NCBI GenBank assembly: GCA_018660265.1
Contig: JABJKS010000051.1
Coordinates: 186,001 to 250,000, forward strand
Origin: Rhodospirillaceae bacterium
Lineage (GTDB): Bacteria > Pseudomonadota > Alphaproteobacteria > GCA-2731375
DNA length: 64,000 nt
Reading direction: 5' to 3'
Shown: positions 15,327 through 21,631 of the stretch, piece by piece
How positions within the stretch are numbered: the stretch's first letter is position 1
Layout of the letters: each line of letters begins with the position of its first letter
Program-made: the position numbers and the translations under genes
The notes under the pieces: generated by a model
Told to the model about the DNA's origin: nothing
What the model saw: the letters and a program-made list of their open reading frames with translations, nothing else
Database searches by the model: none

Positions 15327-16394
15327 ATGAACAACATGATAAACAGACTGGTCACCCTATCGGCCCGCCCGGATCAGAACGCGGGCAGTCACAGCCAGCT
15401 ATCCCCTGACAGCTTTAAGATTATCGAGCGCCCGGTGCCCGAGTTAGGGCCGGGCGAAGTCCTGCTGGCCAATATGTATCTCAGCCTTGATCCTTATATG
15501 GCGGCCTATAGTTTCTCGGTTCAAGCTTTGCAAGACGCGGTGGAGGCGCGCGTGGTCGCCCGTGTCGTTGCCTCTGACAACGCAGATCTGGCCGTCGGCG
15601 ATGTGGTCTGGGGTTTCTTCGGGTGGGAGCTGTATACGGTGCTGCCCGCGACGTTGCAGGACCACAAAGGCTATGACGTACGGCCCAACCGGATCGATCC
15701 GGCCACCTGGCCCAAAGATGCGCCATTGTCCTACGCCGTCTCGTTATTGGGGATGCCGGGTCTGACGGCCTATGTGGGCATCGTCGATATCGGCAAGGCT
15801 CAGGCGGGGGAGACGGTTTATATATCCTCTGCCGCCGGACCATTGGGTCAGGTCGCCGGGCAAATCGCGAAACAGCGCGGCTGTTATGTGGTCGGTAGTG
15901 CGGGCAGTGATGACAAGGTCGATTTCGTTCTCAGCCTTGGTTACGACGCGGCCTTTAACTACAAGACGACGCCGGATGGCATTCAAGCCGCGTTGGAAAC
16001 TCACTGCCCCAAAGGCATCGATGTCTATTTTGACAATGTCGGGGGTGAGACGTTGGATGCGGTGTTTATGGTCATGAACAAGGGCGCGCGTTTGGCCCTG
16101 TGCGGTATGATCTCCACCTATCAGAGCGACGATCCCTATCGCCTGGGGAATATGTTCATGGCGGTGCGCAAGACGGCGACCATGACCGGCTTCGTGATCT
16201 ATGATCACTTCCCGCAAAAAATGCCGGCCTATATTTCGCAAATGGGACAATGGTTGGCTGAGGGCAAGATACGTTATCAGGATGCGACGGTGGAGGGGTT
16301 GGATAATTTGCCAGAGGCCTTTATCGCCATGTTATCCGGACAGCACGGCCTGGGAAAATGTGTGATCGCATTGCCTGAGGCAGCCAAACCTTAG
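15327..16394 (+). CDS. NADP-dependent MDR-family oxidoreductase (CurA/leukotriene B4 dehydrogenase-like)
   Basis: 355 aa zinc-independent medium-chain reductase that should reduce an alpha,beta-unsaturated carbonyl with NADPH. The Rossmann part contains VYISSAAGPLGQVAGQIAKQRGCYVVGSAGS; FDNVGGETLDAVF and the N-terminal YLSLDPYMAAY are typical of CurA-like reductases. No structural zinc cysteines are seen. The ATG at 15327 is preceded by GAGG, which overlaps the LLM stop codon; two codons (TTG at 15309, ATG at 15336) are alternatives. Confidence 0.9.
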   Translation: MNNMINRLVTLSARPDQNAGSHSQLSPDSFKIIERPVPELGPGEVLLANMYLSLDPYMAAYSFSVQALQDAVEARVVARVVASDNADLAVGDVVWGFFGWELYTVLPATLQDHKGYDVRPNRIDPATWPKDAPLSYAVSLLGMPGLTAYVGIVDIGKAQAGETVYISSAAGPLGQVAGQIAKQRGCYVVGSAGSDDKVDFVLSLGYDAAFNYKTTPDGIQAALETHCPKGIDVYFDNVGGETLDAVFMVMNKGARLALCGMISTYQSDDPYRLGNMFMAVRKTATMTGFVIYDHFPQKMPAYISQMGQWLAEGKIRYQDATVEGLDNLPEAFIAMLSGQHGLGKCVIALPEAAKP

Positions 16395-16688
16395 AATTAC
16401 CACATCACGGCCACGTTTCCGCCTTGATTACCCACCAGGTTTAATTTGATCTGTTGGAATGACGGGCTCGTGCCGAAAACGACCTGATAAGCAAATTGTG
16501 AAGATGAATTTCTTGATTTAAAGGAAATATTTACCAAATTAAACATAAGCTGCTTATGTCAAAAAACGGTATTATGGCAATAGCGAATCAGTAGTTAACA
16601 AAGTGTTTAAAAAGAAAAGTAGGAAGGCGTCGGAAGACAACTTGGAGAAATTCGGTCTGTAACAGCAACCTAAGGAGATATGATCCCT
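16395..16688. promoter_or_regulatory. AT-rich control region upstream of the PrkA operon
   Basis: No protein gene in this 294-nt stretch, which is clearly AT-richer than its surroundings. It carries a perfect 8-1-8 inverted repeat at 16543-16559, a TATTAT hexamer at 16570-16575 that could be a -10 element, and TTAA-N7-TTTA at 16595-16609, one mismatch from the CtrA consensus. AAGGAG at 16672-16677 precedes a possible leader ORF. No good -35 hexamer fits the TATTAT, as expected if an activator or alternative sigma factor is used. Confidence 0.5.
16543..16559. promoter_or_regulatory. Perfect 17-nt palindrome (8-1-8), candidate operator
   Basis: ACATAAGC-T-GCTTATGT is an exact inverted repeat. 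Its centre is about 20 nt before the candidate -10 hexamer TATTAT at 16570, so it overlaps where a -35 box would be. This suits a dimeric regulator acting on the PrkA operon. No candidate regulator is encoded beside it. Confidence 0.5.
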
Positions 16689-16751
16689 ATGTATATGTTC
16701 AGTGCTACCCAACACCTTAATCGTCACGTTTTCGAAGGGGGCTGGTCATGA
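16689..16751 (+). CDS. Possible 20-residue leader peptide upstream of prkA
   Basis: A 21-codon frame starting at ATG 16689, 11 nt after a clean AAGGAG, ends in TGA at 16749-16751 overlapping the prkA ATG at 16748 (ATGA). The peptide has Met/Tyr/Phe, then two His and a GGW end. An ATG at 16680 in frame is too close to the AAGGAG. prkA has its own AGGGGG 7 nt before its start, so the leader is not required for its translation but could couple to it. The call rests on spacing and overlap only. Confidence 0.4.
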   Translation: MYMFSATQHLNRHVFEGGWS

Positions 16752-18682
16752 ACGTATTTCAGGCTTTCACAGACGAATATCATCGCCAAGCTGCCGAAGA
16801 AATTGGTCTGCAGGATTATCTGCAGGGTTGCCGCGAAGACCCCATGATGTATGCCAGCGCGGCCGAACGTATGATTGCCGCCATTGGCGAAGAAGAAATT
16901 GTAGATACGTCTACGGATCCCCGCCTGGGCCGGATCTTCCTCAATCGCACCATCAAACGCTACCCCGCATTCAAAGATTTCTACGGCATGGAGCAGACGA
17001 TCGAACGCATCGTCGGTTATTTCCGTTATGCCGCCCAGGGATTGGAAGAGCGTAAGCAGATCCTTTATTTGCTGGGCCCGGTGGGTGGGGGTAAATCCTC
17101 TATCGCGGAGCGCCTGAAAGCTTTGATGGAGACCTATCCGGTTTATGTGCTGAAGGCAGGCGACGAGATCAGCCCGATATTTGAAAGCCCCTTGGGTTTG
17201 TTCGATGCGGAGCGGTTCGGCGAATTGCTGGAAGATAAATATGGCATCCCGCCCCGTCGTCTGACCGGCCTGATGTCACCCTGGGCGGTGAAGCGCCTGG
17301 ACGAATTCGACGGCGATCTATCCCGCTTTACAGTGTTGAAGATGATGCCGTCAAAATTGCGTCAGATCTGTATCGCCAAAACTGAACCGGGCGATGAGAA
17401 TAACCAGGATATCTCGGCCCTGGTGGGTAAGCTTGATATCCGCCAGTTGGAACATTTCAGCCAGGCGGATCCGGATGCCTATTCATTCTCCGGCGGTCTG
17501 AACCGGACCACCCAAGGCATGCTGGAATTTGTGGAGATGTTCAAAGCACCAATCAAAGTACTGCATCCGCTGCTCACCGCGACCCAGGAAGGTAATTATG
17601 TAGGGACCGAGAATTTTGGTGCCTTCCCCTTCCAGGGTATCATTTTGGCCCATTCGAACGAGGCGGAATGGCAGCAGTTCCGCAACAACAAGAACAATGA
17701 AGCCTTCCTGGATCGGATTTCCGTGGTCAAGGTGCCCTATTGTTTGCGTGTCACGGAGGAAGCTGAGATCTATCAAAAGCTGTTGAAAAACAGCGAGCTG
17801 CATGGTGCCAAATGTGCGCCCGAGACTTTGGATATGTTATCCAAGTTCTGCGTCTTGACCCGGTTGCGGGAGCATGAGAATTCAAATCTCTATTCCAAAC
17901 TGCGGGTCTACGACGGCGAGAATATCAAGGAAGCCGACCCGAAGGCGAAATCACCCCAGGAATACCATGATGCCGCAGGCGTTGATGAAGGTATGAACGG
18001 GGTTTCCACCCGCTTTGCCTTTAAGGTGCTGTCGGAAACCTTCAACTATGACCTTGATGAAGTGGCCGCCGATCCGGTGCATTTGATGTATGTCTTGGAG
18101 CAGGCCGTCAAGCGGGCGCAATACCCGGAAGAGACGGAGAAAAATTATCTGGAATTCATCAAGGCCGAATTGGCCCCGCGATATGCTGAATTCATCGGTA
18201 ACGAAATCCAGAAGGCATATTTGGAATCCTATACGGAATATGGCCAAAACCTCTTTGATCGCTATATCGCCTATGCGGACGCCTGGATAGAGGAGCAGGA
18301 TTTCAAGGACCCGGACACGGGACAGATTTTCAACCGCGAAATCCTCGATACGGAATTGAGCAAGATTGAAAAGCCCGCTGGCGTCGCCAACTCGAAAGAC
18401 TTCCGCAACGAGGTGGTGAAATTCGCCCTGCGCCATCGGGCCAACAATGATGGCAGCAACCCGGCCTGGGCCTCTTATGAGAAACTCCGCGAAGTGATCG
18501 AAAAGCGCATGTTCGGTCAGGTCGAGGATTTGTTGCCGGTCATCAGCTTCGGTTCAAAAAAAGACAGCGACAGCGACCGTAAGCATGTGGAATTCGTCGA
18601 ACGGTTGGAGAACCGCGGCTATACCCAACGGCAGGTCCGCCGTCTGGTAGAATGGTACATGCGGGTTAATAAGGCCGGGTAG
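16748..18682 (+). CDS. prkA: PrkA/YeaG family serine protein kinase (AAA+ type)
   Basis: 644 aa cytoplasmic protein. The PrkA AAA domain has Walker A GPVGGGKS at 110-117. The C-terminal PrkA kinase-like domain lies after about residue 430. Family members are nutrient-stress and stationary-phase proteins reported to phosphorylate Ser/Thr substrates. In non-spore-formers they are almost always beside YeaH and SpoVR/YcgB homologues, as here. The start is set by AGGGGG and by the conserved MNVFQAFTDEYHRQAAEE. It is first in a three-gene operon with spacings of 11 and 1 nt. Confidence 0.95.
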   Translation: MNVFQAFTDEYHRQAAEEIGLQDYLQGCREDPMMYASAAERMIAAIGEEEIVDTSTDPRLGRIFLNRTIKRYPAFKDFYGMEQTIERIVGYFRYAAQGLEERKQILYLLGPVGGGKSSIAERLKALMETYPVYVLKAGDEISPIFESPLGLFDAERFGELLEDKYGIPPRRLTGLMSPWAVKRLDEFDGDLSRFTVLKMMPSKLRQICIAKTEPGDENNQDISALVGKLDIRQLEHFSQADPDAYSFSGGLNRTTQGMLEFVEMFKAPIKVLHPLLTATQEGNYVGTENFGAFPFQGIILAHSNEAEWQQFRNNKNNEAFLDRISVVKVPYCLRVTEEAEIYQKLLKNSELHGAKCAPETLDMLSKFCVLTRLREHENSNLYSKLRVYDGENIKEADPKAKSPQEYHDAAGVDEGMNGVSTRFAFKVLSETFNYDLDEVAADPVHLMYVLEQAVKRAQYPEETEKNYLEFIKAELAPRYAEFIGNEIQKAYLESYTEYGQNLFDRYIAYADAWIEEQDFKDPDTGQIFNREILDTELSKIEKPAGVANSKDFRNEVVKFALRHRANNDGSNPAWASYEKLREVIEKRMFGQVEDLLPVISFGSKKDSDSDRKHVEFVERLENRGYTQRQVRRLVEWYMRVNKAG

Positions 18683-18693
18683 GAGTTTGTTTC

Positions 18694-20019
18694 ATGGCGA
18701 TGCATCATTTCATCGACCGAAGACAAAACCCAGGCGGTCGCAGCCTGGGCAACCGGCAACGTTTCATTCGCCGTGCCAAGGCCCAGATCAAGGAAGCCCT
18801 GGATAAATCCATCCATGATCGCAAGTTGGGCGATGTGGCCAATGGTGAAGACCTGTCAATCCCGGCCAAAGGCATTGCCGAACCGCGTCTGCGGCAGGCC
18901 GCGAACGAGGGGCAGCGGGGCCGGGTCCTGCCGGGTAACAAGGAATTCGTCACTGGCGATCAAATCAAGAAACCCCCCAAAGGCGGCGGTGAGGGTGCGG
19001 GCAAAGAAGGTTCCGACGATGGCGAAGGGGAGGACGAATTCCGCTTTACCTTAAGCCGGGACGAATTTCTGGAGCTGTTTTTTGAGGATCTGGAATTACC
19101 CGATCTGATCAAAACGGATTTGCGGGAAATTACCTCCGTTGTCTATCGCCGCGCCGGCTTTGCCCGCGACGGCACACCGGCCAATCTGGATGTCATGCGG
19201 ACCATGCGCAATTCTCTGGGCCGGCGGATCGCCCTTAGCCGCCCCGAGGGGAAAGATGTCGCAACGTTGGAGGCGGAGATCAAGGCGCTGGAGGAGACCA
19301 CGGAACCCGATCTAGAGGACCGGGGTCGTCTTGATGCGCTCTACGAAGAACTGGAGGGCCTGAAACGGCGGCAAAAGATCGTCGCCTATATTGATCCCGT
19401 CGATGTGCGCTATCGCCAGCGTACGCCGGAACCGGTGCCCAATACCCAAGCGGTGATGTTCTGTCTTATGGACGTCTCCGGCTCTATGGGGGAGCGGGAG
19501 AAAGATCTGGCGAAGCGGTTTTTCGTCTTGCTTCATCTGTTTCTCAAACGCCGTTATGAACGTATCGAACTGGTCTTCATCCGCCATACCCATGAGGCCC
19601 AGGAGGTGGACGAGGACACCTTCTTCTATAGCCGGCAAAGCGGTGGCACCGTGGTCTCCACCGCCCTGACCAAGATGATGGAAGTCGTCCGGGACCGCTA
19701 TCCGGCTGATACCTGGAACATCTATGCGGCCCAAGCCTCGGACGGTGAGAATTTTTCTGGCGATAGCGCGCGCTGTTCGAAATTGCTGGCCGAGGAAGTG
19801 ATCCCGGCCTGTCAGTACTATGCCTATGTGGAAATTTTGGATGAGCGGGAGTTTGAACTGTTCGGCAATCCCGATGCGGGTGCCGCCCTGTGGCGATCTT
19901 ATCGGGACGTGGCAGCTGAACGTGAAAATTTTGCCATGAAGCGGGTCACCAAGCCAGCGGATATCTATCCGGTTTTCCGGGAATTATTCCTGCGTCAGGG
20001 GCAGAGGGAGAGGGTGTGA
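18694..20019 (+). CDS. yeaH: YeaH/YhbH family protein (DUF444), VWA-like
   Basis: 441 aa DUF444 protein. The N-terminus is basic (FIDRRQNPGGRSLGNRQRFIRR), followed by a Gly/Asp/Glu-rich linker near 95-115. The C-terminal half is a von Willebrand A-like domain with a MIDAS-type D260-x-S-x-S (MDVSGSMGE). It is genetically and functionally tied to PrkA/YeaG and SpoVR in stress survival. It starts 11 nt after prkA. The biochemical role is unknown; a metal-dependent protein contact is inferred from the MIDAS. Confidence 0.94.
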   Translation: MAMHHFIDRRQNPGGRSLGNRQRFIRRAKAQIKEALDKSIHDRKLGDVANGEDLSIPAKGIAEPRLRQAANEGQRGRVLPGNKEFVTGDQIKKPPKGGGEGAGKEGSDDGEGEDEFRFTLSRDEFLELFFEDLELPDLIKTDLREITSVVYRRAGFARDGTPANLDVMRTMRNSLGRRIALSRPEGKDVATLEAEIKALEETTEPDLEDRGRLDALYEELEGLKRRQKIVAYIDPVDVRYRQRTPEPVPNTQAVMFCLMDVSGSMGEREKDLAKRFFVLLHLFLKRRYERIELVFIRHTHEAQEVDEDTFFYSRQSGGTVVSTALTKMMEVVRDRYPADTWNIYAAQASDGENFSGDSARCSKLLAEEVIPACQYYAYVEILDEREFELFGNPDAGAALWRSYRDVAAERENFAMKRVTKPADIYPVFRELFLRQGQRERV

Positions 20020-20020
20020 T

Positions 20021-21631
20021 ATGAGCAAAGCTTATGCAGACGCTCCAACCGGCGCCCCAACCGGCACCCCAACCGATGACGCGACCGGCGATCTTGGGGA
20101 TCTGCTGTTTGATGATGCCGATTGGAACTTTAAGATTCTTTCAAAGACCTACGATGCCATAGAGCGTGTGGCCTTGGATGATCTGGGCCTGAATGTCTAT
20201 CCCAATCAGGTGGAGATTATCTCGACGGAGCAGATGCTGGATGCCTATTCGTCTTTTGGAATGCCGTTGATGTATCGTCATTGGTCGTTCGGCAAGCATT
20301 TTGCGCGCGACGAGAAATCCTACCGCCAGGGCCATAGCGGCCTGGCCTATGAAATCGTTATCAACGCCAATCCCTGCATCAGCTATAATCTTGAAGACAA
20401 CAGCATGCCCTTGCAGGCCCTGGTCATGGCGCACGCGGCCTTTGGTCACAATCATTTTTTCAAGAACAATTATCTTTTCCGGCAATGGACCGATGCGGAT
20501 GGGGTGCTGGACTATTTCCAGTACGCCAAGGAATTCATCACATCAGTTGAAGAACGACATGGCCTGGAAGAAGTAGAGGCGGTGCTGGATGCCGCCCATG
20601 CCATTATGGATCAGGGGGTTTTTCGTTATCGCCGGGCACCGGAGTTGACCCGGGAACAGCGGGAAACCCGCAAACGGGAAATTGAAGAATATCGCGAACG
20701 CACCTTCAATGACCTGTGGCGCACGGTTCCAGATGGGGACGCGGTGGCGGATCTGTCCGAGGCTGAGAAAGAAAAGATCGTCCGGGCGAGGCAGATGCAT
20801 TTGCCTGAGGAGAACCTGTTGTTCTTCCTGGAACTTAACAGCCCGGTTTTAGAGGGTTGGCAGCGGGAAGTGTTGTCCATCGTTCGTAATGTGGCGCAGT
20901 ATTTTTATCCCCAACGCCAGACCAAGGTGATGAACGAAGGCTGTGCCACCTTTACGCACCATTACATCATGAACGCCCTGTATGACCGCGGCCAGATCAG
21001 CGAAGGGGCGATGTTGGAGGTCTTGCATTCCCATTCCAACGTGCTGTTCCAACCGGATTTTGACGACCCGCGATTTAACGGCATCAATCCCTACGCCCTG
21101 GGGTTCGCGATGATGTGCGATATTCGCCGCATCTGCACAGAACCAACGGACGAAGACCGTGAATGGTTCCCGGACCTGGCGGGTAATGAGGACTGGCGCG
21201 GCGCCCTGCGTCATGCCTGGGAGAACTATCGTGATGAAAGTTTCATCCGCCAGTATCTGAGTCCCTATCTGATCCGAAAAATGAAACTGTTCGACCTGAC
21301 CGACCGGGCGGAGGACGGCCATTATGTCGTCGGTGCTATTCACGATGAACAAGGCTATCGCAAAGTACGCGACGCCCTGGCCAACAATCACGACCCCGCC
21401 CATACGGATGCGGATATCCAGGTCATCGATGCGGACCTGCGGGGTGATCGCCAGTTGTTCCTGGAACACAGCGTCCGCAACGGCGTCGGCCTGGATGAGG
21501 GCAGCCGCACAAACGTGCTCAAACACATCCGTACCTTATGGGGCTACGACGTCACCCTGTCCGGCGTCGATCACGACAACGGTAATCAGCTCTATCGCAC
21601 CTCGACCCTGGAGGTTGAGGACGGGGCGTAA
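20021..21631 (+). CDS. SpoVR/YcgB family protein
   Basis: 536 aa, the normal SpoVR size. Typical segments include YPNQVEIISTEQMLDAYSS, a histidine-rich MAHAAFGHNHFFKNN, NEGCATFTHHYIMNALYD and NPYALGFAMMCDIRR. The clustered histidines suggest metal binding but no activity is proven. In Bacillus the homologue acts in spore cortex formation; in Gram-negatives it accompanies PrkA and YeaH. The first residues (PTGAPTGTPTDDATGD) form a short repetitive linker. It starts 1 nt after the yeaH stop. Confidence 0.95.
   Translation: MSKAYADAPTGAPTGTPTDDATGDLGDLLFDDADWNFKILSKTYDAIERVALDDLGLNVYPNQVEIISTEQMLDAYSSFGMPLMYRHWSFGKHFARDEKSYRQGHSGLAYEIVINANPCISYNLEDNSMPLQALVMAHAAFGHNHFFKNNYLFRQWTDADGVLDYFQYAKEFITSVEERHGLEEVEAVLDAAHAIMDQGVFRYRRAPELTREQRETRKREIEEYRERTFNDLWRTVPDGDAVADLSEAEKEKIVRARQMHLPEENLLFFLELNSPVLEGWQREVLSIVRNVAQYFYPQRQTKVMNEGCATFTHHYIMNALYDRGQISEGAMLEVLHSHSNVLFQPDFDDPRFNGINPYALGFAMMCDIRRICTEPTDEDREWFPDLAGNEDWRGALRHAWENYRDESFIRQYLSPYLIRKMKLFDLTDRAEDGHYVVGAIHDEQGYRKVRDALANNHDPAHTDADIQVIDADLRGDRQLFLEHSVRNGVGLDEGSRTNVLKHIRTLWGYDVTLSGVDHDNGNQLYRTSTLEVEDGA

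Follow-up and report, generated by a model that had tools for sequence, protein, structure and literature searches.

Why does a 20-codon open reading frame with its own ribosome-binding signal end on the start codon of prkA, the first gene of a PrkA-YeaH-SpoVR stress operon, and is it the peptide or the act of translating it that matters there? The window (the whole stretch of DNA analysed, 64 kb, G000:C1:186001-250000) belongs to an alphaproteobacterial genome, and the named loci nearest to it come from proteobacterial, mostly alphaproteobacterial, metagenome-assembled genomes. By Pfam the operon reads PrkA, DUF444 (the YeaH family), SpoVR. An earlier note on this DNA had described an 8-1-8 inverted repeat about 20 nt from a TATTAT hexamer, an AAGGAG well spaced for a 20-residue ORF whose TGA overlaps the prkA ATG, and a ribosome site belonging to prkA itself, and had proposed control by translation or by an amino acid. 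The sequence elements are all found as described, and the comparisons below establish a real, lineage-specific coupled leader ORF whose kind of control is already known. The elements concerned are these:

16485..16600, plus strand: conserved block, probable promoter and 5′ UTR, with TTTACCAAAT, TTATG, TATTATGG and CGAATCA (16584-16590), as seen in 10-nt window identity
16543..16559, no strand assigned: perfect 8-1-8 palindrome ACATAAGCTGCTTATGT (ACATAAGC-T-GCTTATGT), perfect in the window genome only
16570..16575, plus strand: TATTAT, a -10-like hexamer kept in seven genus members and in L018
16672..16677, plus strand: SD1, the AAGGAG of the leader ORF; positions -75..-70 are 95% identical in seven genus members, and the SD duplex is -5.8 to -9.3 kcal/mol in 9/9
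16689..16751, plus strand: leader ORF MYMFSATQHLNRHVFEGGWS, 20 codons, ATG at 16689 and TGA at 16751, in ATGA overlap with the prkA ATG at 16748; same ATG position, length and overlap in 9/9 of the prkA lineage
16689..16709, plus strand: putative anti-start, leader ORF codons 1-7, whose complementarity to the prkA start was judged by duplex energy against shuffles, a position scan and 309 control genes
16735..16741, plus strand: SD2, the AAGGGGG of prkA, within the leader ORF; duplex -9.3 to -12.4 kcal/mol in 9/9
16748..18682, plus strand: prkA (PF08298, 1.5e-177; PF06798, 3.4e-73)
18694..20019, plus strand: DUF444 (YeaH-like) gene of the operon (PF04285, 1.8e-167)
20021..21631, plus strand: spoVR-like gene of the operon (PF04293, 2e-163)

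Ten of the 15 genomes examined from the order carry prkA at E 1e-100 or better, and nine of these ten have the leader ORF with its ATG at exactly -59, its 20 codons and its ATGA overlap (the window, L004-L009, L018 and L019). The same search did not find prkA in G004, G006, G008, G009 and G013; four of these five genomes are at least 93% complete, and they probably represent losses in the lineage. Eighty further prkA loci, the best 80 of 575 confirmed, were added for comparison. A match reaching the PrkA N-terminus is present in 101 of the 105 loci scanned (none in L002 and L023-L025), and leaving out four duplicates, namely L001 (which repeats the window), L026 and L027 (from the genomes of L009 and L008) and L032 (on the contig of L010), gives a survey set of 97. 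The ORF in this form is found at 0 of the 88 other loci in that set, six of which (L011, L012, L015, L029, L040 and L105) have SD-led ORFs of differing lengths and start codons that end at the prkA start. In a PrkA protein tree built from 58 of the 97 loci the nine carriers form one branch (83/97), and L011, from the tenth prkA-bearing genome of the order (G012:C1:1595486-1597411), sits in a separate one (95/95). Since the carriers form a single branch from which the L011 gene is separate, the leader ORF is a trait of one prkA lineage, and no break was found within that lineage. The case that the earlier note had named as telling against its ORF, a frame broken in relatives with prkA intact, occurs in 0 of 9, and the ORF stands. 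The L011 prkA groups with other alphaproteobacteria, apart from its own family, as though it were an old paralogue or had been replaced through horizontal transfer.

Conservation within the lineage is unevenly distributed. Among seven genus members identity is 86% from SD1 to ATG1, 100% at ATG1, 57% in the ORF interior (codons 2-14) and 71% at SD2, and 0 of 20,000 column permutations match the value from SD1 to ATG1; over all nine sequences the first three figures are 73%, 100% and 48%. In 10-nt steps, identity drops to 0.40 in the interior at -31 to -17, the minimum between SD1 and prkA. The leader frame has internal stops in none of the nine, and each of the two other sense frames is broken in six; by column shuffling that keeps relatedness, this openness has P 0.054 for codons 2-15 and 0.021 for codons 2-20, which is borderline as evidence on its own. 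Mean NG86 rates for the ORF are dN 0.88 and dS 0.66 (28 pairs of eight sequences), compared with dN 0.04 and dS 0.87 for prkA, and the BLOSUM score of the leader peptides shows no excess over shuffles (P 0.16 for nine sequences, 0.49 for seven). These rates show the peptide to be a by-product that evolves without purifying selection. The distance from ATG1 to prkA is constant, whereas that from CGAATCA to prkA varies from -160 to -174 in eight sequences. Given the fixed spacing of the one, the varying spacing of the other and a drifting peptide, the natural reading is that what matters is for ribosomes to initiate at ATG1 and to terminate at the start of prkA, not the peptide.

The same patterns bear on other ways of accounting for the ORF. 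In an attenuation or arrest leader the ribosome would stall on particular codons or on the nascent peptide and switch prkA in response to an amino acid or a drug. A short SD-led ORF before a stress operon and the partial conservation of Thr/Ser around codons 7-8 agree with this, but the peptide is unconserved, with dN at least as high as dS; no repeated regulatory codon or run of a single amino acid was found in the ORF; terminator-like hairpins number 0 in 16380-16800, so that neither a terminator nor an antiterminator is in evidence there; and no Rfam leader matches. The last result, for which covariance models were run over 16380-16900 and gave 0 matches with E up to 1, also tells against a known Rfam cis-regulatory RNA. 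With a drifting peptide behind a conserved SD1 and ATG1, it is unlikely that the ORF encodes an amino-acid-sensing or arrest peptide, and we give attenuation as a whole a low probability. On these grounds the two halves of the earlier proposal part company: control by translation is the best-supported reading, and control by an amino acid finds no support. Repression of the CsrA/RsmA type through GGA motifs would suit the seven genus leaders, each of which has three to four such motifs before or at SD1/SD2, with some near -104 and -74; CsrA itself (PF02599), however, is found in 0 of 11 genus genomes by a search that is positive in E. coli and B. subtilis, an absence that contradicts a CsrA-regulated leader unless the genus has a divergent homologue, and that leaves this reading next to no credit. 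The main rival is an incidental ORF in a long 5′ UTR, in which something else (a standby ribosome site, RNA stability or an sRNA target) accounts for the conserved SD1 block and translating the ORF serves no purpose. Short coupled ORFs with an ATGA or TRATG end and a loosely scored SD precede 17 of 310 genes in sampled parts of the genome, further UTR blocks are conserved as well, and SD2 is strong. Among those 17, only the ORF of prkA combines an ATG start with an SD duplex at or below -8 kcal/mol. An ORF with no role does not sit easily with an ATG1 that is invariant in 9/9 at a fixed 59 nt, with an open frame, or with conservation that, from SD1 to prkA, is weakest in the ORF interior. The leader rises above chance because it is conserved in relatives, and we consider the incidental reading unlikely.

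Further upstream, the palindrome ends 10 nt before TATTAT (21 nt centre to centre). It is only mildly unusual, because 3.3% of shuffles of the 353-nt leader hold at least one perfect 8-arm palindrome; the window contains three perfect 8-1-8 palindromes and six with perfect 8-nt arms and a loop of 0-6. Binding of a dedicated transcription factor at the palindrome, as the operator of this operon, would accord with a perfect dyad near a -10-like box and with L004, where the outer 6-bp arm is different and again perfect (CCATAA/TTATGG), and because of this L004 arm a weak dyad may exist at the site. Set against such an operator, arm pairing in the eight alignable leaders is 8, 6, 5, 6, 4, 4, 5 and 5 of 8 positions, hence 4-6 in the seven other than the window, and the relaxed pattern (M)CATAAN5TTATG(K) has one match in its own genome and 0-3 in ten others, with no excess over the reversed control. 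Arm decay in relatives and the single genomic match rule out a regulon operator; a dedicated operator for this operon is improbable, and the palindrome appears to be mostly incidental. TTATG, TATTATG and CGAATCA, unlike the palindrome, are conserved in the leaders. Identity over 10 nt in the surrounding block is 0.46-0.95 in the seven genus members, against 0.07-0.45 further upstream, and the pattern TATTATGNNAANNNCGAATCA, built on TATTATG and CGAATCA, occurs with at most one mismatch at the prkA leader in 7/7 prkA-bearing genus genomes, the extra match being one unrelated 1-mismatch site in G004. Judged by its conservation the block is probably a promoter, and TATTAT is a credible -10 box; a promoter scan returned nothing above chance on the plus strand and no -35, and its sole sigma-70-like match lies on the minus strand at chance level.

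Other short frames occur before prkA. A second micro-ORF candidate, TTG GAG ... of 6-7 codons (16642-16662 in the window, about -106), is present in 7/7 genus members and would encode LEKFGL, LEMIGL, LEIFIRN, LEMICP, LEIFVRN, LEMICP and LEMICP across the window and L004-L009; no clear SD precedes it in the seven, and it may have arisen by chance within the conserved CTTGGAGA block. In the Rhizobiaceae loci L072-L102 a TTG/ATG-AGCGAGCCG block is conserved about 55 nt upstream of prkA. In the TTG group this block shares the prkA frame and might extend the protein at its N-terminus; in L075, L096 and L099 it begins a 23-codon ORF of its own that overlaps the prkA start.

Folding predictions suggest how the leader ORF and the prkA start might be linked. 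Predicted openness of the SD2-AUG stretch falls below that of 83-99% of 75 strong-SD controls from the same genome in eight of nine species; the percentiles for L003 (the window), L004-L009, L018 and L019 are 0.11, 0.61, 0.01, 0.01, 0.17, 0.01, 0.01, 0.12 and 0.03, and the prkA start of L004 (0.61) is thus not unusually closed. The SD2 stretch is predicted to pair mostly with the leader ORF (pairing share 0.42-0.84 in 9/9), and SD1 lies at the 53rd-95th percentile of openness among 309 controls, in a fold window that ends at -29 and leaves out the prkA start. Complementarity of the first 21 nt of the ORF to the prkA start exceeds that of their own shuffles with a combined P of 1.3e-4 for the nine loci, which are related and not independent, and 4.8e-4 for five representatives; P values by locus, in the order L003-L009, L018 and L019, are 0.017, 0.183, 0.019, 0.012, 0.269, 0.024, 0.175, 0.16 and 0.233. 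The whole ORF to -18 gives 6.4e-4 (nine loci) and 0.006 (five), and its downstream half alone shows no excess (0.56 and 0.37). These three segments were chosen after inspection of a fold, with a position scan and 309 genes as control. The scan of 21-nt segments from -185 to -21 reaches its minima at -65..-45 and -53..-33. Applied to the 309 control genes, this test is flat (3.2% no higher than 0.05), and the combined value of the leader is reached by 0 of 5000 random control sets of nine or of five. The predicted pairing uses AUGACC with GGUCAU in L006, L008 and, in part, L009, and A(C/U)GUUC with GAACGU in L003, L004, L005 and L007. Because these registers differ between species, classical covariation support for the pairing is missing. 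No conserved RNA fold was found across the leader or 5′ UTR (RNAalifold z 0.0 for nine sequences, -1.0 for seven, -0.2 for eight and -1.0 for eight over a shorter stretch), and the shifting registers may explain the missing consensus. A milder test that shuffles the leader only puts SD2-AUG at the 4-63% level, and by it SD2 is barely less accessible than expected. In sum, low predicted accessibility in eight of nine species and excess complementarity are consistent with a downstream start that would stay closed until the ORF is translated, yet there is no consensus fold.

We return to the leader ORF as a ribosome-delivery device for prkA acting through translational coupling, a reading that we hold with somewhat better than even confidence. 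A coupled leader ORF is well supported. What evolution has preserved in it is its place before prkA, not the peptide, and its probable function is to supply that gene with ribosomes. Transcription would probably start near the TATTAT box. A ribosome would then initiate at SD1/ATG1, where conservation of the ORF's own initiation signals reveals purifying selection on both, and its passage would open the predicted pairing between the first ORF codons and the prkA start. Termination at the TGA within ATGA would place it directly over SD2 and the prkA ATG, and either the same ribosome or a new 30S subunit would go on to initiate PrkA synthesis, as the architecture and published work on -4 spacing suggest. 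Counterpoints are that SD2 is strong and could work alone, and that the TGA of the leader is a free by-product of the Met-Asn start of prkA. The leader might also be a sensor of translation capacity, with the prkA start locked by the first ORF codons through changing registers; we regard this as distinctly doubtful. If true, PrkA would be made only during efficient initiation at SD1, and a starvation kinase would be tied to the availability of ribosomes or initiation factors with no conserved peptide or fold involved.

Attenuator leader peptides such as trpL are short SD-led ORFs upstream of an operon, and the prkA leader resembles them in that arrangement; unlike them, it has no regulatory codon run and no terminator, and its peptide drifts. 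Another likeness is to coupled short upstream ORFs at -4 (NTGA) spacing, which together with ribosome delivery by short ORFs is established or proposed in PMC12548453: the stop overlaps the next start, as it does in 9/9 of the lineage, and ribosome delivery is the proposed sole purpose. The prkA leader differs in the conservation, within a single lineage, of its length, start and SD, and in the complementarity of its first codons to the start downstream, this predicted anti-start complementarity being its less usual feature. Mycobacterial MIRU elements, described in the same source, likewise couple a short ORF at -4 to the next gene, but MIRUs are mobile repeats, whereas the promoter-block pattern marks a single prkA leader in each genome. 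For the PrkA-YeaH-SpoVR operon, PMC3188799 deals with transcriptional control, namely a strong dependence on (p)ppGpp and sigma-N in Rhizobium etli. The leader would add a translational layer to this stress operon, and among the titles listed in searches of an open literature library none describes a leader ORF at prkA/yeaG. It is a natural, evolutionarily tested example where conservation appears to fall on the translating of a leader and not on what is made, and it offers a search signature for such leaders: initiation signals kept, peptide free, and anti-start complementarity in shifting registers. A further parallel is found in synthetic bicistronic design (BCD) cassettes (PMC5995908). With such cassettes the prkA leader shares the stop-start overlap, a short leader cistron that bears SD2, an SD1 and the irrelevance of the peptide; it differs in being natural, specific to a stress operon and 20 codons long, and in the predicted sequestration of the downstream start. 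By this analogy the prkA leader is best read as a natural counterpart of bicistronic design.
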